A DNA stretch of 32,063 bases from positions 1-32,063 of the forward strand of contig NZ_JAENIO010000046.1 of NCBI RefSeq assembly GCF_016595415.1, read 5' to 3'. The notes beneath the pieces are model-generated. The model was not told the origin of the DNA and made no database searches. It saw nothing but the letters and a program-made list of their open reading frames with translations. Both the position numbers and the translations under genes were made by a program. Shown piece after piece: positions 2,833 through 14,387 of this stretch; within the stretch, counting starts at the first letter, position 1, and each line of letters opens with the position of its first letter. Source of the stretch: Roseibacillus ishigakijimensis (GTDB lineage: Bacteria > Verrucomicrobiota > Verrucomicrobiia > Verrucomicrobiales > Akkermansiaceae).

Positions 2833-4413
2833 TTATTCGTTGGGGGTTTGAGGGACTGGGGGGACGCTTTTTTCCGGCAGGCGGCTGAGGCTGGGGAGTC
2901 CCTGGCGGAGGAATTGTTGGTCCACTTGATCGGAGAGAGCGGCGTCGAGGTAGAGGGTGCCGGGGGCTTCGTCCAGCCCGATGCGATGGATGCCATCGGT
3001 GGGTATTGCGGTGAGAGCGTCGGCGAGGTCGCGCAAATTCCGCACGGCCTGGCCATTGGCTTGATTCACGATGAGGCCGTGGAGGCGGTCGTAGCCGATG
3101 GTGGCGGGATTGGGGAGCACGCGGGAGAGAAAGACGATGCTTTCGCGTTCCTCTTCGTAGTCTTCGGGGTTTTCCATTGCGTGCATGAGGTCCAGAGGCG
3201 CGCGGGTGGTCCAGTTGTCCCCATGGGCTTCCAGATATTCGCGGGAAAGCTCCTGAAAGACGAGTCCTCCCTTGATGAGGAAAGTGGGCGGGGAATCGTT
3301 GAGATGGCGGGGAACGAGGGGCTCGGGGGCGGCTTCCAGAGTGGCGGTGATGACTTCTTCCTTGCCATCGCGAAGGATGGTCAGGCTTAGTTGATCACCC
3401 ACCGTCTTGGTGGAGCGGATGAGGACGGACCAGGGAAGGGGGCCGTAGGAGGGGTGCTCGAAGTAGCCCCGGCGATCCAGCTGATGCTCGTCGATGGCGA
3501 GGAGGACATCGCCAAGCTGGAGCCCGGCTCGCCCGGCGGGACTGTCGGCCTTGACTTTGGAGAGGTAGAGTCCGCCCCCGTCGCTGGGGAGGCCCAGATA
3601 GTCGCGAAAGGACTTGTCTTCGGTGCGGGTGATGGCCACGCCGAGGACGGGGAAGCCCTCGTAACTGCCATCGCGGGCATCACGGAGGAAGGTGGCGATG
3701 ATTTCGGGAGGGATGACCTCGGAAATCTGGTCCTCGGAATCGTAGCTGGTGAGAACGCCCAGGAGGCGGTGGCCTTTGGTCACCGGGAGGGTGAAGGACG
3801 AGGAGGCGGACTGCATGGATCCCTTCACGACATAGGTCAGGAAGGAGTAGCCGGAGAGGAAAGAAGCGGCGGTATCGACGGCCCGGATAGTGGCCCGGGT
3901 GCGCAGGGTGGTGCCGTTGCTTTCCACCTGCCAGACGCTCACGGAGTCGCCAATGTGGGCGGGGGATCCCAGCTGCAGGGGGGTCTTTTTTTGCAAGAAG
4001 CCTGCGTCGCCGATGGGGGCGAGGAGGGCCAGATTGGCTTTGTAATCAATGGCGATGACTTCGGCCTGCACCGATTGCGAGGAGTCGGCGGACTCGAGCT
4101 CCAGGTAGGTCTGATTGGCGACGAGCTCGGCGGCGGTGAGGATTTCGCGGGGGGAGATGAGGGTGCCGAGACCACTGCGGCGCTGGGGGTTGTTGCGTTG
4201 CCAAGGTTGGCCCGCATTGAAGGTCTGGATGGTGGAATTCACCCGCACAAAGCTGTCGAGGATGTCCTCGCTGGCTTCGCCCACCAGCTCGGTGGCCCCG
4301 GAGGCAGAAGCCGGGGTGGGGAGTTGGTCGGCCGGGGAGGCGGCAGGGGTTTCGGCCGATAGCTGGGGCAGCAGTAGACTGCTGGCGAGGAGGCTGGAGA
4401 AAAGAGGTTTCAT
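2833..4413 (-). CDS. Exported Deg/HtrA-like pseudoprotease with PDZ domains
   Basis: The 526-residue protein has a signal peptide (MKPLFSSLLASSLLLPQLSA), a trypsin-like Deg domain at about 50-245, a PDZ domain at about 255-370 (LGLPSDGGG, AGRAGLQLGDVLLAID) and a second PDZ-like module near the C-terminus. It is a paralogue of the neighbouring protease but has lost the catalytic triad: the His position reads TAAELV (Glu96), the Asp position reads KANLAL (Asn127), and the GNSGGP loop is replaced by SASSSFTLP. It is therefore probably a non-proteolytic binding or regulatory partner. The start at 4413 is set by the signal peptide, though the frame is open 75 codons further upstream into the neighbour's 3' end. 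It lies 31 bases behind the active paralogue. Confidence 0.87.
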   Translation of the reverse strand: MKPLFSSLLASSLLLPQLSAETPAASPADQLPTPASASGATELVGEASEDILDSFVRVNSTIQTFNAGQPWQRNNPQRRSGLGTLISPREILTAAELVANQTYLELESADSSQSVQAEVIAIDYKANLALLAPIGDAGFLQKKTPLQLGSPAHIGDSVSVWQVESNGTTLRTRATIRAVDTAASFLSGYSFLTYVVKGSMQSASSSFTLPVTKGHRLLGVLTSYDSEDQISEVIPPEIIATFLRDARDGSYEGFPVLGVAITRTEDKSFRDYLGLPSDGGGLYLSKVKADSPAGRAGLQLGDVLLAIDEHQLDRRGYFEHPSYGPLPWSVLIRSTKTVGDQLSLTILRDGKEEVITATLEAAPEPLVPRHLNDSPPTFLIKGGLVFQELSREYLEAHGDNWTTRAPLDLMHAMENPEDYEEERESIVFLSRVLPNPATIGYDRLHGLIVNQANGQAVRNLRDLADALTAIPTDGIHRIGLDEAPGTLYLDAALSDQVDQQFLRQGLPSLSRLPEKSVPPVPQTPNE

Positions 4414-4444
4414 TATGATGGATAAGTTTGCTGGAAGGGGGGCT

Positions 4445-5947
4445 TCAGTCTTCGCCGAGGTAATGGGTGGCGGGAATGTTGTTGGTGCCCATGAGCCGCT
4501 GATTGACGGCGGGGACGCGGGCGCTGGGCAGGACCAGGGGGCGGCCGCGATCTTCGAATTCGAAGACGGTGAACTCCGGTTGTTCATTTTCATACAAAAG
4601 CTCGTGGGCGTGGCGAAGGTCGCGCACTTTTTCGCCATTGATGCTATCGATGATGGAACCGGCGAAGGAGGTCATGTGGACGGTGAGTTCGTCACTCTCA
4701 ACCCGTGTCAAAACGAGGATTTCGGGTTTCTCCTTGAAGAGGCCTTCCCGGAGATAGCGCTCGGTGAGGTGGCGGGTGGTGACGTCGGTCAGGCGGTGGG
4801 CAGACATCACATTGAGGCTGAGGGGCTGAATGACGAGTCCGCCGTAAAAAATGTATTCGGGGCGCTCGTCATAAATGATGCTGAAAAGCGGTGAGCCCGG
4901 GAGGGGCGCCAAGGTGATGGTGGCTTGCCGCTCCTCTCCCTCGCGGAGAAAGTCGAGGGTGACTTCGTCTTTTGCGAACTTCCGCTCCACGATTTCGTGC
5001 AGCACGAGTTGCTCGCCTGCCACATTGATGTTGCCGGCCGAGTCGATGGCATTGCCGTCGATGGCGAGAAGGATGTCGTTTTCCTGCAGCTGGCCATCAC
5101 AAGGCCCTTCCGGAATTACGCTGGTGACGAGCACGCCCCGATCGTTGTCGGGAAGGCCCAGGGCCTGGCGCATGGCGGGATTGAAGAGTGGGAAGGTGCT
5201 CACGCCGAGGTCGACGTATTTGTCGTATTGACCGTCCTCGATGTCTTTCAAAAAGCGGCGGATGACGGGGGTCGGGATGATGTAGCCGGTGTTGTCGGCT
5301 TGGGTGAGACCTTGGAAGGCTACGCCGATCACTTTGTCATCTTGCACCGCCGGGCCGCCCGAGTTGCCGGGGTTGATGGCGGCATCGACCTGGATGATGA
5401 GGTGGGAATCGGCTCGGGAGTGGGAATAGGGGCGGAAGTCGATGCGGGAGACGATGCCCCGGGTGACGGAGAGGCGATCTCCTCCCACGGGGTAGCCGAT
5501 GGCGCGCACTTCGGAGTCCAGCGCGGGCATGCCGCCGATGGGGAGGGGGGCGAGGCCGGCCAGCGGGGTGGGGTCTTCCAAGCTGATGAGAGCAAGGTCG
5601 CAATCGTGTGCAATGTGCTGGATGACTGCCGGGAGCTTGCGGGCGGAGTTGCGCTGGGTGACGAGGATGCGGCGGGCGTTGGAAACGACGTGGGCATTGG
5701 TGAGTATCTGGTTGGGCCCGATGAGGAAGCCCGTGCCATTGCCGCCGGAGAATCCGCCTGTATTCCATGGGGTGCGGTAGTCGGGATTCTGGGTGGCGAC
5801 CTCGATGCGAAGGACGGAATCGAAGAGGTGGCTCTGGGTGGCCTTGGGCGAGGGGGCGGGCTTCTCCACCACTTCGGGCGGGGGAGCAAGTTGGGCGGAG
5901 AGAGGAAGGCAGGCCAAAAGGCCGGAGAGGAACAATCGCGTGAGCAT
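4445..5947 (-). CDS. Exported Deg/HtrA-family serine protease, DEG9-like
   Basis: This 500-residue periplasmic or envelope protease has a signal peptide ending near Ala18. The complete triad is present: His86 in TNAHVV, Asp117 in HDCDLAL, and Ser196 in NPGNSGGP. A PDZ domain follows at about 245-350 (GVLVTSV, NDILLAIDG), then a second PDZ-like domain to the C-terminus (DSINGEKVRDLRHAHELL). The long C-terminal half, with its FEFEDRGRPLVL-type ending, resembles plant DEG9-type proteases more than E. coli DegP. Deg proteases degrade or refold damaged envelope proteins. It is the first gene of a run with the inactive paralogue and the Fe-S scaffold. The ATG at 5947 marks the signal peptide; upstream in-frame codons are not protein-like. 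No Shine-Dalgarno sequence is seen. Confidence 0.93.
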   Translation of the reverse strand: MLTRLFLSGLLACLPLSAQLAPPPEVVEKPAPSPKATQSHLFDSVLRIEVATQNPDYRTPWNTGGFSGGNGTGFLIGPNQILTNAHVVSNARRILVTQRNSARKLPAVIQHIAHDCDLALISLEDPTPLAGLAPLPIGGMPALDSEVRAIGYPVGGDRLSVTRGIVSRIDFRPYSHSRADSHLIIQVDAAINPGNSGGPAVQDDKVIGVAFQGLTQADNTGYIIPTPVIRRFLKDIEDGQYDKYVDLGVSTFPLFNPAMRQALGLPDNDRGVLVTSVIPEGPCDGQLQENDILLAIDGNAIDSAGNINVAGEQLVLHEIVERKFAKDEVTLDFLREGEERQATITLAPLPGSPLFSIIYDERPEYIFYGGLVIQPLSLNVMSAHRLTDVTTRHLTERYLREGLFKEKPEILVLTRVESDELTVHMTSFAGSIIDSINGEKVRDLRHAHELLYENEQPEFTVFEFEDRGRPLVLPSARVPAVNQRLMGTNNIPATHYLGED

Positions 5948-6010
5948 GGAAAGAAGCCTAGTGCCAAATTGCAGGCTGGCAAGCGCCCGGAATGCCGGTA
6001 AAGAAGCGCC

Positions 6011-7003
6011 ATGATGCAACGCAATGAAGATCGATTCGTGATGCCAGCCGAGTGGTCGCCGGTGGAGGCGATCTGGCTAAGCTGGCCAGTGGCTCCGCAG
6101 CTGTGGGGCGGCATCGCCCGTGCGGAGGTGGAAGCGGAGTTTGCCCGCTTGGTGGCGGTGATTGCGCGCTTCGCGCAAGTGCGGCTCTGTGTGCAGCTCG
6201 ACCAGCGCGAGCGGGTGGTGGAGCTGGTTCCGCAGGCGGAGGTTTTTGCCATTGCCACCGACGATGTCTGGTGTCGCGACCACGGGCCGACTTTCTTGCG
6301 CCATCCCCGAACCGGAGCGGTGGCGATGGTCGATTGGCGCTACAATGCCTGGGGCGGGAAGTTTCCTTTTGAGAAAGACAACCGGGTTCCCGCCGCGATT
6401 GCCGCTTTACAGCAAATTCCCCGCTCGGTGAGCTCTCTTGTCTGCGAAGGAGGGGCTTTGGAAAGCAATGGTGCGGGTCGGATTCTCACTACTGAGTCGG
6501 TCTTGCTGAATGGCAATCGCAATCCGGATTGGGATCGGGAGGCTGTTGCCACTGAGTTGAAAGCCCAGCTGGGGGCTGTGGAGATTCTCTGGCTGCGGGC
6601 TGGGCTGGAGCACGATGATACCGATGGGCATATCGATATGGTGGCTCGCTTTGTGAGTGAAGATGCGGTGCTGGCGGTGGAGCCCGCAAGCGAGACGCTG
6701 CGCGACAACTGGAAGCGGCTGGAAGCGGCAGGACTGCAAGTGCGGGCGCTGCCCTACGTGGGGGAAATCGCGGAAGGCATCGAGGGGAGTTATGCCAATT
6801 TTCTCATTGTCAACGAGGGAGTCGTCGTGCCGCAATATGGCTTGGCGGGTGATGCCGAGGCCTTGGCGGTGGTGGCGGAGGCTTTTCCCGGAAAGGAAGT
6901 GGTGGGCTTTGACTGCCGATTGCTCGGGCGGGAAGGGGGCGCGGTCCATTGCCTCACCCAGGGGCAGTGGCGGCGGGGTGATGTCCCGTCTTCTTGCGAT
7001 TAA
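6011..7003 (+). CDS. aguA: Agmatine deiminase / peptidyl-arginine deiminase family
   Basis: Agmatine deiminase converts agmatine to N-carbamoylputrescine plus ammonia in polyamine synthesis. The 330-residue product has the guanidine-modifying active site: DDVWCRDHGP with Asp90, NAWGGK, EGGALE at 146-151, DTDGHID with His207, and the nucleophile Cys314 in GGAVHCLTQ. The length is slightly short but normal for the family. ATG codons at 6011 and 6014 are both possible. The gene is divergent from the Deg protease (63-base gap) and 37 bases before purD. No agmatinase, arginine decarboxylase or N-carbamoylputrescine amidase is nearby, so the substrate is inferred from family. Confidence 0.9.
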   Translation: MMQRNEDRFVMPAEWSPVEAIWLSWPVAPQLWGGIARAEVEAEFARLVAVIARFAQVRLCVQLDQRERVVELVPQAEVFAIATDDVWCRDHGPTFLRHPRTGAVAMVDWRYNAWGGKFPFEKDNRVPAAIAALQQIPRSVSSLVCEGGALESNGAGRILTTESVLLNGNRNPDWDREAVATELKAQLGAVEILWLRAGLEHDDTDGHIDMVARFVSEDAVLAVEPASETLRDNWKRLEAAGLQVRALPYVGEIAEGIEGSYANFLIVNEGVVVPQYGLAGDAEALAVVAEAFPGKEVVGFDCRLLGREGGAVHCLTQGQWRRGDVPSSCD

Positions 7004-8293: not shown

Positions 8294-9895
8294 TTAGGAA
8301 CGGGGGCGGGGGTAGACCTTGGCCTCGTGTGCCCATCGCACCCACTTGTCGGCAAGTTCTTTGAGCTTCTCGGGTTGAGTGGGGGCGAGGTTTTGCAATT
8401 CGGTGCGGTCCTCGGCCAGGTTGTAGAGTTCCCATTTGGAGAAATCCGGCTGCGTGGTTCCGACGAGGTGGTTGCCCACCAGCTTGTATTCCCCTTCTAG
8501 GAGAAAGGCATTGCTCTCGTGCTCCATGGCGAGAAAACCTTCCCGCGCGAGAGGCTCTTGTCCGAAGGAGGGGCGGAGGGAAATGCCTGAGAGAGGGGGC
8601 AAGGGATTGCCGTGCATCTGCCCGGGATAGTCCGCGCCCGTGACATTGAGCAAGGTGGGCACGACATCGAGGATGTGCCCGGGGGAGCGATACCACTCGC
8701 TCTGGGCCTCGATTTGTGCGGGCCAGTGCAGGAAGAAGGGGGTCGCGGTCCCGCCTTCGTGGGCATGGTGCTTGTAAAGGCGGAAGGGAGTGGAGCCCAG
8801 ATTGGCCCAAGCCTCTCCGTAGGAATTGGCGGGCTGTTGGTTGCGGCGGGCGATGTCGTAATATTCGCCGCGACCCAGAGGACCGCCTTCCTGACAGGCT
8901 CCATTGTCGGAGAGGAAGAGAATGAGGGTATTATCCAGCAATTTTTGCTCATTCAAGAAGGCCGTGAGTTTGCCGATATTTTGATCCACGCGGTCCACCA
9001 TGGCGGCATAGATGGCCATCTTGAGGTCCATCTCGTCCTGCTTTTCTTTGCTGAGGGAATCCCAGGCAGGGACGCTCGCGGGGCGGGGGGAGAGCTTCCA
9101 CCGGGGATCGATGAGGCCGAGTTCGAGCTGCCTTTGGTAACGCTTCTTGCGGAGTTGGTCCCAGCCGAGTTTGTATTTTCCCCGGTATTTGGCGATGTCA
9201 TCTTCGAAGGCTTGGAGGGGCCAATGGGGGGCGGTGTAAGCGAGGTAGAGAAAGAAGGGGTCATCCGTTTTTGCTTCGTTCTCAGCGATGAAGTCGATGG
9301 CATAGTCGGTGAAGGCATCGGTGGTGTAGAACGGCTCGTCAGTGGTGGAGAGGGGTTTTTCGAGGGGAGTATTGTCCCGGGTCATTCCCCGGGGGTGTTC
9401 GGGGTAGAAGAAGCGGGTGGCCCCGGGGATGCAGCCATAGAAGCGATCGAATCCGCGTTGGAGTGGCCAGCGATCCTTGTCGTGGAAGCCCAGATGCCAC
9501 TTGCCGGTCATCAGGGTCGAGTAGCCAGCGGGCTTGAGCAGCTCGGCCAGGGTGGCGCAGTGGCGATTGAGGTAGCCTTGATAGGCGGGAGGCTCGGGCT
9601 CATTGATATGTGTGGGCGAGCTGGTCATGTGCCCGATGCCCGTCTGGTGGGGATGCAGCCCGGTCAGCAAGGTCGCTCGCGTGGGGCAACAGCGGCCGCC
9701 ATTGTAGAAGTGGGAGAAACGAACTCCGCCGTGGGCCAATTTGTCGAGATTCGGGGTCTCGATTTCTCCTCCCATGTAGCCGAGGTCCGAGAATCCCAGG
9801 TCATCGACCATGATGAGCAGGATATTGGGTCGCTCGGCGGGCAAGAGCGAGGCGGCGAGGAGAAGAGTGCTGGTGGCCAGAAGGAGTAATTTCAT
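8294..9895 (-). CDS. Exported arylsulfatase-type sulfatase (FGly family)
   Basis: This 533-residue sulfatase has a Sec signal peptide (about 1-20, ending LLPA). It carries metal-binding Asp31-Asp32 in MVDDLGFSDLG and a Cys-type sulfatase signature, Cys69-Cys-Pro-Thr-Arg73, followed by ATLLTG. Cys69 would be oxidised to formylglycine. GKWHLG and LSDNGA supply further active-site residues. The family hydrolyses sulfate esters, here probably on carbohydrate outside the cytoplasm. It is the last gene of a three-sulfatase minus-strand operon, 25 bases behind the second. It is closest in pattern to PF00884 arylsulfatase A-like enzymes. The substrate cannot be read from the sequence. Confidence 0.92.
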   Translation of the reverse strand: MKLLLLATSTLLLAASLLPAERPNILLIMVDDLGFSDLGYMGGEIETPNLDKLAHGGVRFSHFYNGGRCCPTRATLLTGLHPHQTGIGHMTSSPTHINEPEPPAYQGYLNRHCATLAELLKPAGYSTLMTGKWHLGFHDKDRWPLQRGFDRFYGCIPGATRFFYPEHPRGMTRDNTPLEKPLSTTDEPFYTTDAFTDYAIDFIAENEAKTDDPFFLYLAYTAPHWPLQAFEDDIAKYRGKYKLGWDQLRKKRYQRQLELGLIDPRWKLSPRPASVPAWDSLSKEKQDEMDLKMAIYAAMVDRVDQNIGKLTAFLNEQKLLDNTLILFLSDNGACQEGGPLGRGEYYDIARRNQQPANSYGEAWANLGSTPFRLYKHHAHEGGTATPFFLHWPAQIEAQSEWYRSPGHILDVVPTLLNVTGADYPGQMHGNPLPPLSGISLRPSFGQEPLAREGFLAMEHESNAFLLEGEYKLVGNHLVGTTQPDFSKWELYNLAEDRTELQNLAPTQPEKLKELADKWVRWAHEAKVYPRPRS

Positions 9896-9920: not shown

Positions 9921-11402
9921 CTAGCGGGGGCTGGGATAGAGAGAGAACTTTTTCTTCATCTCCGCCACAATAGCGGGGTGCTCTGAGGCGATGTTCCTGG
10001 TCTCGAGGGGACTCTCCTGAAAATCATAAAGTTCATAGACCAGGTCCTCGCTGCCCGGGCGTCCCCATTGCACGAGGCGGTAGCGTTCGTTGCGGATGGC
10101 CCAGCCGAAGCGTTTTTGCGGATAGCAGTGGGTGATGTGGTCCCGGATGCGCGCTTTCGGATCTTGCAAGACAGGCTTCAGGCTCAGTCCGTCAATGGGC
10201 TGGGGACCGGCCGGTGGCGGGAGGTCGGCCAAGTCGCAAAGGGTGGGGAAGAGGTCCACCGTCGAGGCGAGTTGCCCGGTGGCGGAGCCGGGCGCGATAC
10301 CGGGGCCCGCGATGATGAGCGGGATGCGCGTGGGCTGCTCGAAGTTGTCGTGTTTGCTGAAGCGATTGTGGGTGCCGAGGTGCCAGCCGTGGTCGCCCCA
10401 GAGGACGACATAGGTGTTTTCCGAGAGTCCGCTCTCCTCGAGAGCAGTTAGGACTTTGCCGATCTGAGCAGACACATAACTGGTGCAGGCGTAATAAGCG
10501 CGAATCATCTCTTGTTGGAATTCCTCATCATCGAAGCGCTCGCGACAGGGGAAGTAGTTGAAGAGCTCAATGCCTTTGTTTCGTAGGGCGTAAGGGGGAC
10601 TTCCTTCAGGAGCGGTGCGCACGGAGGGGAGTTCGAATTTGTCGAGAGGATGAAGGTCGTAGTATTTCCTGGGAGCGGAGAAAGGAAGGTGTGGACGAGC
10701 GAAGCCCGCGCAGAGGAAGAAGGGCTCGCCGCTTTCCTGGAATTCGTTTAGGTAGTCTATGGCGCGCTGGGCGGTGCGTCCGTCGGCATAGGCCTCGTCG
10801 GGCGCGCCCGCGATTTCTATCGCCGCCCCCCGGCCCACTTTCTTGTCTGCGAGGAAGCTCTCGCGCTCGCCTGGGGAGAGGTGATGAAGCTCGAAAAAGA
10901 CCTCTTCTTGGCTGATCGAGGTCTCGCGGCTCTCGGGCAGGAGGTATTCCACCACCTTGTCTTTGTGGACGAGATCGAAGGACTGGTCGTCGCCGCTGTT
11001 GCCGTGTCCGACATGAAAGACTTTGCCCAGGGAGAGGGTGCGGTAGCCTCCGTGGTTCTTGAAATGCTGAGGCATGGTCACCGCCCCGGAGTAGCGCTCG
11101 CGCAGATTGGTGCCGAGCCCGTAGAGGCCGGTGGAGGTGGAGAGACTGCCCAACATGAGGTTGAAGCGGGAGGGTGCGCAGACCGCTTGGTTGCAATAGG
11201 CGGACTCGAAGCGCAGCCCTTTTTTGGCGAGGGCGTCGATGCCCGGCGTGATGGCTTTCTCGTCCCCGTAGCAACCAAGGGCGGGTTTCAAGTCGTCGAC
11301 GAGAATGAGTAGGATATTGGGCCTCTCATTCCCTCGCAGCATGCCAGTGAGGGTGAGCAGGAGTGTGGCGGCAAAAAGGGGGATTCGGGAGTGGATGGTC
11401 AT
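9921..11402 (-). CDS. Exported iduronate-2-sulfatase-like sulfatase
   Basis: The 493-residue product has a signal peptide (about 1-25), metal-binding Asp36-Asp37 in LVDDLKPALGCYG, and the sulfatase signature Cys75-Ala-Pro-Ser-Arg79 with Cys75 as formylglycine precursor. WGDHGWHLG near residue 340 supplies the Asp/His pair. The DDLKPALGCYGD and GDHGWHLGTHNRFSKH patterns are typical of the iduronate-2-sulfatase-like group (choline-sulfatase relatives), which act on 2-O-sulfated sugars. It sits in the middle of the operon, 21 bases behind the fusion sulfatase and 25 before the next. Actual substrate unknown; in marine bacteria such enzymes often act on algal polysaccharides. Confidence 0.92.
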   Translation of the reverse strand: MTIHSRIPLFAATLLLTLTGMLRGNERPNILLILVDDLKPALGCYGDEKAITPGIDALAKKGLRFESAYCNQAVCAPSRFNLMLGSLSTSTGLYGLGTNLRERYSGAVTMPQHFKNHGGYRTLSLGKVFHVGHGNSGDDQSFDLVHKDKVVEYLLPESRETSISQEEVFFELHHLSPGERESFLADKKVGRGAAIEIAGAPDEAYADGRTAQRAIDYLNEFQESGEPFFLCAGFARPHLPFSAPRKYYDLHPLDKFELPSVRTAPEGSPPYALRNKGIELFNYFPCRERFDDEEFQQEMIRAYYACTSYVSAQIGKVLTALEESGLSENTYVVLWGDHGWHLGTHNRFSKHDNFEQPTRIPLIIAGPGIAPGSATGQLASTVDLFPTLCDLADLPPPAGPQPIDGLSLKPVLQDPKARIRDHITHCYPQKRFGWAIRNERYRLVQWGRPGSEDLVYELYDFQESPLETRNIASEHPAIVAEMKKKFSLYPSPR

Positions 11403-11423: not shown

Positions 11424-14387
11424 TTATCGGGAGAGTTCTGAGAGAGAGAAATCGCGAAAAGTGGCGGCGGTATCGACCACGCGCAGCCCGACCCTGCCCG
11501 TGGGATAAGTCTCATCGCGAAAGGTCAGCACCTCTTCGTCATTGAGAGAGATAGTGAATCGGGGACCTCGGCCTTGCACGCGAAGGTGATGGGGCTGGCT
11601 GTGGTCCAGAGACAGGGCGACCCGGTGCAGCTCCTGCCAACGATGGCCATCCATCTTGCCCGCAACCAGCAACCGGGTGCGGGGAATGAGCCCCGCGAAG
11701 TAGCCACGGTGGGCATCGTAGCCCACGCTGGGGGCGGTGGTGCGAAAGAGGAGCCCGGCATCGCGGGACTCGGCCCCGCCCTGGAAGTCGATGGTGACGG
11801 AGGCGCTGAAATCTGCTGGGGTGGGAGCGGAAAGGACCATTTTTTCCCCGCCGCGATAGACATTGACCGGATGGGCGACCTCTTGGCCGAGGGTGAGGCC
11901 CGACTCCCCGATTTGATAAAGTTGATGATGGCCGTAGTAGTCCCACCCTTCGAGGGTGGCAGGCTGCTGCAAGGTATTTTCGTAAGGCAGGGAGAATTTG
12001 CCCAGGGGCTCGCCGGAGGGGCGGGGGAGAGGCACGTTGGCCGGGACCGGAAGGCCGAACTCAGGGTAGCCTTGGTCATTGAAGAACATCGGCTGAGCGA
12101 AAATGGCACGCCGCCAACCCGGTTCGCGGTCCCGCTTGGCATGGAAGAGGTGCCACCATTCCGTGCCATCGGGGGAGGGTGCGAAGCAGCTGTGGCCCAC
12201 TCCGTAGGTCTCCTTCGTAGAGCGAAAGACTGGCTCGGGGTGTTTTTTCCAAGCCGCTGGGTCGAGCGGATCGTCGCCGATCAGCTCGAGGAGACCGAGC
12301 TTGTAGGTGGGCAGCCAGGAGGCCCCGCAGGAGTAGGTCACGAGAGTGCGCCTCGGGCTGGGCACCACTTGGGGGCCCTCATTGAGGCCGCGCCCCCGGC
12401 CCTCGGGCTCGGTCATTTCCCAAGGATAGTCGGCATTCCCACAGAGTCGCACGCGGGGACCGGAGAGCTCGGTGGGGGACTTCATGGGCGCGATGTAGAG
12501 GAATTGGCGGTCGGTATCGGGGCCGTCCCAGCCGGACCAGATGGCGTAAAGGCGGTCGCCGATGGGCAGTGGAGTCATGTCAATGGCCCAGAGATTGGGC
12601 GAGCGGCCATCCGCGCCTTCGCCAGTCGCCAGGGGACCGTGCAAGTCGTATTCGCCCAGAGGATCCGCTGTGCGGGAACGGAGGACATAGGCGAGGTGGT
12701 TGCGGTTCTGGCCATCAGAGGCGGCCATGTAGATGTGCCAATGCCCTTCGAGGAAATGGAGCTCCGGGGCCCAAACCTCGCGGGAAAAGGGGCCTTCTGC
12801 GGGAGCCCGCCAGACGAGATGTTTTTCGCCCAGGGAGGTGAGGCTGTCGCTGGTGTGAATGGCGATGCCACGATTGCCATCGGAGAAGCACCACAGGTAG
12901 CGATTGGCCTTGGCATCGCGCACCACCCAAGGGTCGGCTCCTTCCCCAATGGCATTGACAAAATGGTCGTCGGCAAGGGGAGCGGTGGCCGCGTAGGCGG
13001 GGTCTCCCTCATCGCGGGGCAGGCCTTCGTTCCACGCCTTGAGCTGGGCGGACATGGCTTGCACCAAGTCTTCCTTCTCGGGCGCGAGATTGTTTTTCTC
13101 CCCGGGGTCGTCTCCAAGATGATAGAGCTCGGCTTCGGTCCCTTCGTAGTTCACCAGCAGCTTCCAATCGCCCTGTCGCATTGCCAGGTCGGGATTGGCT
13201 TGCCCGCCTTCCCCAGGGCGGTCGGGGGGACGACGCCAGAAGAGGGGAGCTTGGCGGCTCCCGGCTCGTTCACCCTGCAGGACCGCGCTCAGGTCCTCTC
13301 CATCGAGCGAATGCCCGGCGGGAAGATCGGTGTGGGTGAGGGAATAAAGCGAGCGGTTGAGATCGAGCGCGGAAAACACCGAGGTGGTGTTGGTGCTTCC
13401 CGGCGCGTTCCCGGCTTGCAAACCGGGCCCCCAGACGATGAGGGGCGAGCGGATGCCTCCCTCGTAAAGCCAAGTCTTGGCCCCCCGAAGCGGTTTGGAA
13501 GAGCCGGCTCCCTCCTCGTGGCCATTGTCGGAGCAGAGAATGATGAGGGTGTTTTCCCGCAAGACCTTATCATGGCGAATGTGGTCGAAGAGTGGGGCGA
13601 GCTGCTCATCCATCGCCTCCAACACGGCGTAATAGAGCGCGCGCTTGGATCCATCGCTCTCATCGCGAAGAACTTCGGGCGGAAAGAAAGGGGAGTGAAC
13701 GTCGTCCGGCCAGAGATTGAGAAAAAAGGGCTGCTCCTTTTCCGTGGCCTCTTTGATGAAGGTGAGGGCCTCGGTGACGAAGGCCGCGGTGATTTGGGAA
13801 CGGTCTTTCCAGATGATGGGGCCCCGCCCCAGACGTGCGGACCCCAAGTCGTGGCGCTGTTTCCGGCTGCCATCGTAGGGGTCGCAAAGGGGGAGGAAGC
13901 GCTTGCCAAGTCCTTCAAAGTTGGTGGTGCTTCGGTCGAATCCGTAGTCTTCGATGAGAGGCGCGTCGTAGACATCCCGTTGCCCGCCCATGTGCCACTT
14001 GCCGAAGTGTCCAGTGGCATAGCCCGCCTGCTGCAACTCGCGGGCCAGGATGGGGGCCTCGGGATCCAGCCATTGGGCCATCCCTCTTTCGTGATTGGCG
14101 CGCCGGTGATTGAGGTAGGAAGTGATTTGCCAGCGCTGTGGATACTGGCCCGTGGTGAGGGCCACCCGCGAGGGCGAACAGATGGGAGAATTGACGTAGA
14201 ATTGCGTGAAGCGGATGCCTTCCTGAGCCAGGCGGTCGATATTTTCGGTCTGGGCGTGCTGACCGCCAAAGCAAGAGAGATCGCTGTAGCCCAAGTCGTC
14301 AATGAAGACGGTGATGATATTGGGCCGTTGCGGAGAAGCGGTGAGCGCCGCCCAAAAAAAGGGGAAAAGTAGGAAAAAATGCTTCAT
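11424..14387 (-). CDS. Trimodular exported sulfatase - GH43 - LamG-like fusion
   Basis: This 987-residue protein has a signal peptide (1-18) and three modules. Residues 20-465 are a formylglycine sulfatase: Asp30-Asp31, Cys70-Ser-Pro-Ser-Arg74, GKWHMG at 129-134, Asp287-Asn288, and Lys304. Residues 470-795 are a five-bladed-propeller glycosidase of GH43 type: Asp485 in GADPW (base), Asp603 in AIDMTP, Glu670 in NEGP (acid), plus VWAPELHF and GVGHSCFAPSPDGTEWW. Residues 805-987 are a beta-rich concanavalin-like domain (DAGLLFRT, HHLRVQGRGPRFTISLNDEEV), perhaps carbohydrate-binding. All catalytic residues of both enzymes are present, so the protein could desulfate and cleave the same glycan. It is the first gene of the operon. 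The open frame runs unbroken across both junctions. Confidence 0.93.
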   Translation of the reverse strand: MKHFFLLFPFFWAALTASPQRPNIITVFIDDLGYSDLSCFGGQHAQTENIDRLAQEGIRFTQFYVNSPICSPSRVALTTGQYPQRWQITSYLNHRRANHERGMAQWLDPEAPILARELQQAGYATGHFGKWHMGGQRDVYDAPLIEDYGFDRSTTNFEGLGKRFLPLCDPYDGSRKQRHDLGSARLGRGPIIWKDRSQITAAFVTEALTFIKEATEKEQPFFLNLWPDDVHSPFFPPEVLRDESDGSKRALYYAVLEAMDEQLAPLFDHIRHDKVLRENTLIILCSDNGHEEGAGSSKPLRGAKTWLYEGGIRSPLIVWGPGLQAGNAPGSTNTTSVFSALDLNRSLYSLTHTDLPAGHSLDGEDLSAVLQGERAGSRQAPLFWRRPPDRPGEGGQANPDLAMRQGDWKLLVNYEGTEAELYHLGDDPGEKNNLAPEKEDLVQAMSAQLKAWNEGLPRDEGDPAYAATAPLADDHFVNAIGEGADPWVVRDAKANRYLWCFSDGNRGIAIHTSDSLTSLGEKHLVWRAPAEGPFSREVWAPELHFLEGHWHIYMAASDGQNRNHLAYVLRSRTADPLGEYDLHGPLATGEGADGRSPNLWAIDMTPLPIGDRLYAIWSGWDGPDTDRQFLYIAPMKSPTELSGPRVRLCGNADYPWEMTEPEGRGRGLNEGPQVVPSPRRTLVTYSCGASWLPTYKLGLLELIGDDPLDPAAWKKHPEPVFRSTKETYGVGHSCFAPSPDGTEWWHLFHAKRDREPGWRRAIFAQPMFFNDQGYPEFGLPVPANVPLPRPSGEPLGKFSLPYENTLQQPATLEGWDYYGHHQLYQIGESGLTLGQEVAHPVNVYRGGEKMVLSAPTPADFSASVTIDFQGGAESRDAGLLFRTTAPSVGYDAHRGYFAGLIPRTRLLVAGKMDGHRWQELHRVALSLDHSQPHHLRVQGRGPRFTISLNDEEVLTFRDETYPTGRVGLRVVDTAATFRDFSLSELSR

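Follow-up and report, generated by a model that had tools for sequence, protein, structure and literature searches.

A conserved sulfatase–GH43–CBM66-like fusion in Roseibacillus ishigakijimensis and its possible role in two-step processing of a sulfated glycan

Why should one protein carry both a sulfatase and a glycosidase, and are the two activities used in succession on the same glycan? The question is raised by a gene of Roseibacillus ishigakijimensis that encodes a sulfatase, a glycosidase of family GH43 and a C-terminal beta-sandwich in a single chain. The gene lies in a stretch of 32,063 nucleotides, hereafter the window, which is one whole contig (NZ_JAENIO010000046.1) of the 192-contig assembly GCF_016595415.1. 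The initial annotation of the window had described an exported protein joining a sulfatase, a GH43 glycosidase and a LamG-like domain, and proposed that a sulfated glycan is desulfated and cleaved in a coupled manner. The three-part fusion is confirmed. It is a conserved, uncharacterised version of a known kind of sulfatase–glycosidase fusion. For its function, a secreted two-step enzyme that desulfates a glycan and then removes the terminal residue is an explanation whose chances we consider balanced.

Three modules in one chain

The fused gene (11424..14387; this and all other features of the window are on the minus strand unless marked otherwise) runs from an ATG at 14387 to a TAA ending at 11424. 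The claimed frame of 987 residues is indeed unbroken, and the strand, which the claim had left out, is minus. An in-frame TAG stands 12 codons upstream, with no ATG, GTG or TTG in between. The Pfam domains of the product are Sulfatase (PF00884, residues 22-350, E 6.9e-42), SGSH_C (304-451) and Glyco_hydro_43 (481-775, E 8.7e-30). The N-terminus (residues 1-19, 14331..14387), judged by eye, resembles a signal peptide and has no lipobox cysteine; the mean hydropathy of residues 4-17 is 1.97. From this N-terminus the protein is probably secreted, and to that extent the export claimed earlier is supported. The 932-codon open frame opposite the gene (11574-14372, plus strand, TTG start) is regarded as a shadow open reading frame (ORF).

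Conservation was assessed in an alignment of 31 rows, the window protein and 30 loci hand-picked from the 47 fused loci described below; tandem-sulfatase forms were trimmed to the second sulfatase, and one row lacks the C-terminal module. None of the 31 rows deviates at C70, P72, R74, D485, D603 or E670. The Cys70-x-Pro-x-Arg74 site and the Asp485/Asp603/Glu670 triad had been placed correctly. Likewise invariant in all rows are D30, D31, K130, H132, H231, D287, N288 and K304, which we take to be functional sulfatase residues. A structure model of the whole chain, built from the same 31 rows, has a mean predicted local distance difference test score (pLDDT) of 82.2 and a predicted template modelling score (pTM) of 0.58.

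The S1-type sulfatase module occupies residues 20-460 (13008..14330), with the formylglycine site C70-S-P-S-R74 at 14166..14180. Its assignment to the formylglycine sulfatases follows from 144.2 bits to PF00884 (cut-off 25) and from the C-x-P-x-R site, and the part of the whole-chain model at about 16-469 matches sulfatases with Z-scores of 28.9-32.8 among the 50 matches listed. Of the solved structures, 7stt and an S1_16 enzyme come nearest, followed by S1_19. The R. ishigakijimensis genome contains three matches above cut-off to the formylglycine-generating enzyme (PF03781), candidates for the maturation of C70. Close relatives of this sulfatase also occur in multi-sulfatase chains lacking GH43, both tandem (loci L065, L067 and L069) and triple (L066:6470-10648); locus L068 resembles the tandem chains by BLAST.

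The GH43 module spans residues 469-790 (12018..12983). It scores 104.5 bits in Pfam against a cut-off of 32.2, contains the Asp/Asp/Glu triad, and its model matches five-bladed propellers, so that both Pfam and the model keep the middle region within GH43. The best match of the whole-chain model at about 473-794 is AtAbf43C (Z 37.7, 32% identity). Together with SaAraf43A, the Lactobacillus brevis and Weissella arabinofuranosidases and 3k1u it forms a top group at Z 37.4-37.7, below which are 4qqs (Z 33.9) and 3kst (Z 28.9), the latter being the only other GH43-like entry among the matches listed. Comparison of sequences yields the same top group, again with 4qqs next. The 3k1u structure is called a beta-xylosidase by its title only, and the closest solved relatives with tested activity are all arabinofuranosidases.

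AtAbf43C is a GH43_26 exo-1,5-alpha-L-arabinofuranosidase with the triad D168/D283/E344 proven by mutagenesis, and each of the ten GH43_26 enzymes with an earlier characterisation is an alpha-1,5-arabinofuranosidase (PMC12493170; here and below, papers are cited for the sections of their text that were available). The residues aligned with this triad are D485 (12933..12935), D603 (12579..12581) and E670 (12378..12380), respectively. AtAbf43C and SaAraf43A thus share with the GH43 module the propeller and the triad, and are its best structural match, but they have CBM42 instead of CBM66 and no sulfatase, and the identity is about 30%, compared with 49-63% between other characterised members and AtAbf43C (PMC12493170). 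By sequence and model, the module appears closest to GH43_26-type exo-alpha-1,5-L-arabinofuranosidases, and of the substrates suggested initially, arabinans, galactans and xylans, the structural neighbours narrow the list towards arabinofuranosides. The GH43_11 and GH43_12 xylosidases of Verrucomicrobiota are named without a fusion in the available text of PMC8857213.

The C-terminal beta-sandwich (residues 791-987, 11427..12017), modelled alone, has a pLDDT of 90.3 and a pTM of 0.88. Its best fold match is the CBM66 module of the Bacillus subtilis levanase, a fructofuranosidase (Z 22.9, root-mean-square deviation 2.1, 163 aligned residues, 21-23% identity), the next unrelated matches are at Z 19.9, and the best match by sequence is CBM66 4azz (E 1.1e-9). 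The LamG-like description holds as a fold class; the closest solved structures are CBM66, hence we replace the generic label by CBM66-like, with furanose binding predicted. The Pfam match to 3keto-disac_hyd at 811-981 (25.4 bits) is under the cut-off of 26.8, and a catalytic 3-keto-disaccharide hydrolase at this position was set aside.

Distribution of the fusion and linkage of its parts

In 142 genomes, including that of R. ishigakijimensis, up to five candidates were scored in each. Of the other 141, 13 contain full-length relatives (about 61% identity), and one more has a relative broken by a contig end. Hence the fusion is more than a chance event. The same search did not reveal it in any of the three congeneric genomes. 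A scan of the GTDB species genomes yielded 90 stretches encoding GH43-CBM relatives, of which 80 were kept, representing 79 distinct loci; the two sets of counts overlap, some relatives being common to both.

Sorted by ORF content, 47 of the 79 loci join this sulfatase to GH43 in one chain. A single sulfatase is seen in 33 of them, some of which end at contig ends where a second one in front is possible, and 14 have a second, different sulfatase (S0) in front. In six further loci a contig end cuts off the 5' side. The carriers of the fusion are Verrucomicrobiota (Akkermansiaceae, Roseibacillus and others), Planctomycetota and one Kiritimatiellae genome, and loci from the scan in the Pirellulaceae come from Roseiconus nitratireducens, Rhodopirellula baltica, Stieleria tagensis and Neorhodopirellula pilleata. 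Thus the architecture is widespread and cannot be called unique; the other half of the caveat attached to the initial annotation, that a substrate might be known already, found no counterpart in the open-licence literature. Among the genomes lacking the fusion, a close sulfatase is present in 7 of the 10 that carry a separate GH43-K protein (K being the C-terminal module) versus 32 of 117 others, a weak association (Fisher P 0.009) in lists compiled by hand from the 142-genome search.

The linker between the sulfatase and GH43 (residues 461-468 in the window protein, 12984..13007) keeps to 7-15 residues throughout (47 of 47), most often 8 or 11. Moreover, pairwise distances of the two enzymes are correlated (Mantel r 0.776, a value reached in 0 of 2000 permutations) over 45 of the 48 fused proteins, the sulfatase being cut in the remaining three; among pairs of proteins with less than 75% identity, r is 0.50. 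In a GH43 tree built by a quick method from the window and 76 loci (three loci with fewer than 200 GH43 residues were left out), the transitions between fused and unfused forms take 11 changes, not counting rows cut by contig ends, and 31 of the 74 inner branches have support below 80. From this tree, a history with more than one gain, loss or transfer of the fusion seems probable.

Proposed order of the two reactions and the candidate sugar

The likeliest function is to couple desulfation with cleavage, since the chain has two conserved active sites and a short linker of limited length, the distances are correlated, and there are sulfate-first precedents. In the first step, the formylglycine sulfatase would strip the sulfate from the terminal sugar at the non-reducing end; in the second, the GH43 pocket, until then blocked by the sulfate, would cleave the freed residue with inversion. 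The CBM66-like module would hold the chain on furanose ends, and two sulfatases of the same likely operon would deal with other sulfate positions. If the two-step explanation holds, the best candidate for the leaving sugar is alpha-L-arabinofuranose or a close furanoside, with roughly even chances. The order, desulfation before cleavage, is most likely by analogy with two fusions that work in this way, and the coupled processing proposed initially is, as an interpretation, partly supported.

The first of these fusions is P36 of Formosa agariphila, an S1_25-GH78 protein that desulfates rhamnose at the non-reducing end and then removes it (PMC8511951). It resembles the window protein in having a sulfatase and an exo-glycosidase in one chain, with its own reactions being consecutive, sulfate first; unlike the window protein, it has another sulfatase subfamily, GH78 rather than GH43, and ulvan rhamnose as the target (PMC8511951). 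As in P36-type proteins, both catalytic modules are intact in one chain in the window protein. The structure 6hr5, by its title the S1_25 module of rhamnosidase FA22250, is presumably that of P36. In the second fusion, PbSulf1-GH195 of Polaribacter, the glycosidase works only after desulfation, and another bacterium has both enzymes as separate genes (PMC13063451), as is also seen elsewhere for the present pair. Unlike the window protein, PbSulf1-GH195 combines S1_51 with GH195, is endo-acting, with both enzymes working inside the glycan chain, and has a sulfated mannan as its substrate (PMC13063451).

Other sulfatase fusions, S1_7-GH10, S1_7-GH32 and S1_15-GH29, have been published for Kiritimatiellales (PMC6388578), and algal Planctomycetes have two-sulfatase genes as well as GH43/GH117 hits within sulfatases, interpreted as a distant relationship (PMC4807772). 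The available sections of these two papers describe no sulfatase-GH43-CBM66 unit, and those of PMC5066984, PMC9096561 and PMC10880615 contain nothing on GH43 or fusions that we could find. In the open-licence literature as a whole we found no description of the unit or its substrate.

GH127, a family of the beta-L-arabinofuranosidase type, is present in the same protein or an adjacent gene at 4 of the 79 loci. In Planctomycetes bacterium CA13, a protein of 1346 residues has the order GH127-F5/8C-GH43-CBM66-like without a sulfatase (L085:5487-9527). At L116, L118 and L128, GH127 is in a gene adjacent to the GH43 gene, and in L116 and L128 it is fused to a sulfatase; the matches in L118 (65 bits) and L128 (49 bits) are far weaker than those in L085 and L116. 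The number expected from gene density is 0.30 over the 79 loci (P 2.6e-4) and 0.11 over 27 carrier genomes hand-picked from them, all four GH127 loci included (P 5e-6). The gene numbers were merged by hand, with pieces of one gene counted once and two sub-cut-off matches dropped, and the enrichment was spotted after viewing the neighbours and is uncorrected for that, hence it is suggestive only.

The longest chain, an ORF of 2991 residues at L116:570-9545 (the same as L061:1565-10540), contains the GH43 and C-terminal modules together with GH2 domains, a TraB/PrgY/GumN domain, a weak GH5-like match and two sulfatases; the next genes encode GH127-F5/8C-sulfatase (1275 residues) and a two-sulfatase ORF (1202 residues). 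With S for the sulfatase, the chains range from S-GH43-K, S0-S-GH43-K, GH127-GH43-K and sulfatase-GH127 up to this one with GH2. They may belong to an undescribed system for degradation of a sulfated L-arabinofuranose glycan, built in Verrucomicrobiota and Planctomycetota from a shuffled kit of two sulfatase types, a GH43_26-like enzyme, GH127 and a CBM66-like module, the window protein being the enzyme that desulfates and clips. We offer this wider scheme tentatively, as a possibility that has the balance of likelihood against it.

Several observations weigh against a two-step enzyme releasing arabinofuranose. The solved relatives nearest to the sulfatase module act on other sulfated sugars, and the GH43 module is only about 30% identical to any characterised GH43 found. 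At 75 of the 79 loci there is no match to GH127 (tblastn with four GH127 queries, E 1e-8; distant copies may escape), and the R. ishigakijimensis genome has none either, which rules out GH127 as a constant partner. The same genome yields no match to L-arabinose isomerase or to the GH51 C-terminal domain, and the isomerase is present in only 3 of the 27 carrier genomes. There may be a different route for the use of L-arabinose, or the sugar may be some other pentose.

The latter case corresponds to an alternative in which the two-step logic is kept for another sugar (beta-D-xylose or some other pentose or furanose) and shared ancestry alone accounts for the resemblance to arabinofuranosidases. 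Both the low identity and the isomerase missing from the R. ishigakijimensis genome and 24 of 27 carrier genomes agree with it. The GH43 family also includes xylosidases and galactanases. One of the galactanases, GH43_24, seems to act on sulfated arabinogalactan protein only after a separate sulfatase (PMC8406133), which is a further precedent for the sulfate-first order of the main explanation. However, the tested activities of the closest solved relatives and the GH127 links in four loci point to arabinose, and we consider another sugar unlikely, at a level that still deserves attention.

A fixed order would be unnecessary if the modules were independent and acted on different parts of a glycan, the fusion serving joint secretion or tethering. 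GH43 occurs without this sulfatase in the chain at 26 of the 79 loci, and a close relative of the sulfatase turns up within the stretch examined at only two of these; thus GH43 can do without it. The related sulfatases in chains lacking GH43, and the many other partner domains of sulfatases in the R. ishigakijimensis genome, are also consistent with independent modules. On the other hand, the linker length is confined to 7-15 residues, and the characterised sulfatase–glycosidase fusions work in sequence (PMC8511951, PMC13063451). We consider independent modules unlikely, slightly more so than another sugar. Finally, in a window that is a single contig of 192, one might suspect that metagenome assembly produced the frame or that two genes were joined by chance, but full-length relatives in 13 other genomes and in strains such as those of Roseiconus nitratireducens, Rhodopirellula baltica and Stieleria tagensis rule out both.

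A likely operon and the sulfatases of the genome

The fused gene likely heads an operon with two further sulfatases, as suggested by the gaps of 21 and 25 bp and the common strand of all three genes. The second gene (9921..11402, 493 residues) is 21 bp downstream of the fused gene, and the third (8294..9895, 533 residues) 25 bp further. Of the solved structures, 6hhm and iduronate-2-sulfatases come closest to the former and the arylsulfatases 7all and 1hdh to the latter. Among neighbours chosen for comparison, relatives of the operon sulfatases are beside or near the fusion at 51% identity in L087 and at 42-44% in L082, L140 and L116. The front sulfatase of the tandem form in L082 has an S1_8 enzyme as its nearest solved relative; a counterpart of S0 was not found in the R. 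ishigakijimensis genome at E 1e-60, in a search made without a positive control.

Elsewhere in this genome, sulfatases at L153, L154, L155, L160 and L161 have extra domains (Laminin_G_3 with PKD, PA14 with Big_9, a porphyranase beta-sandwich, 3keto-disac_hyd, GDSL lipase). A GH43 match follows two sulfatases on the same strand at C108:41552-44993, and another, at C159:97117-99555, is divergent from the adjoining sulfatase. In the window itself, two adjoining trypsin-like PDZ proteases, HtrA/Deg-like, are encoded at 2833-6019 (minus strand).

Sulfatases are very numerous in bacteria of this group, and the substrates of most are unknown; the R. ishigakijimensis genome alone has 49 matches, two of them in one frame. 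A fixed sulfatase–glycosidase pair shows which sulfatase serves which bond, hence an assay of the GH43 module could class the substrate of the sulfatase. The sulfatase type concerned is present in dozens of genomes, some of them from cultured strains. If the sugar is arabinofuranose, a sulfated arabinose-containing glycan would be indicated as food of the carriers.

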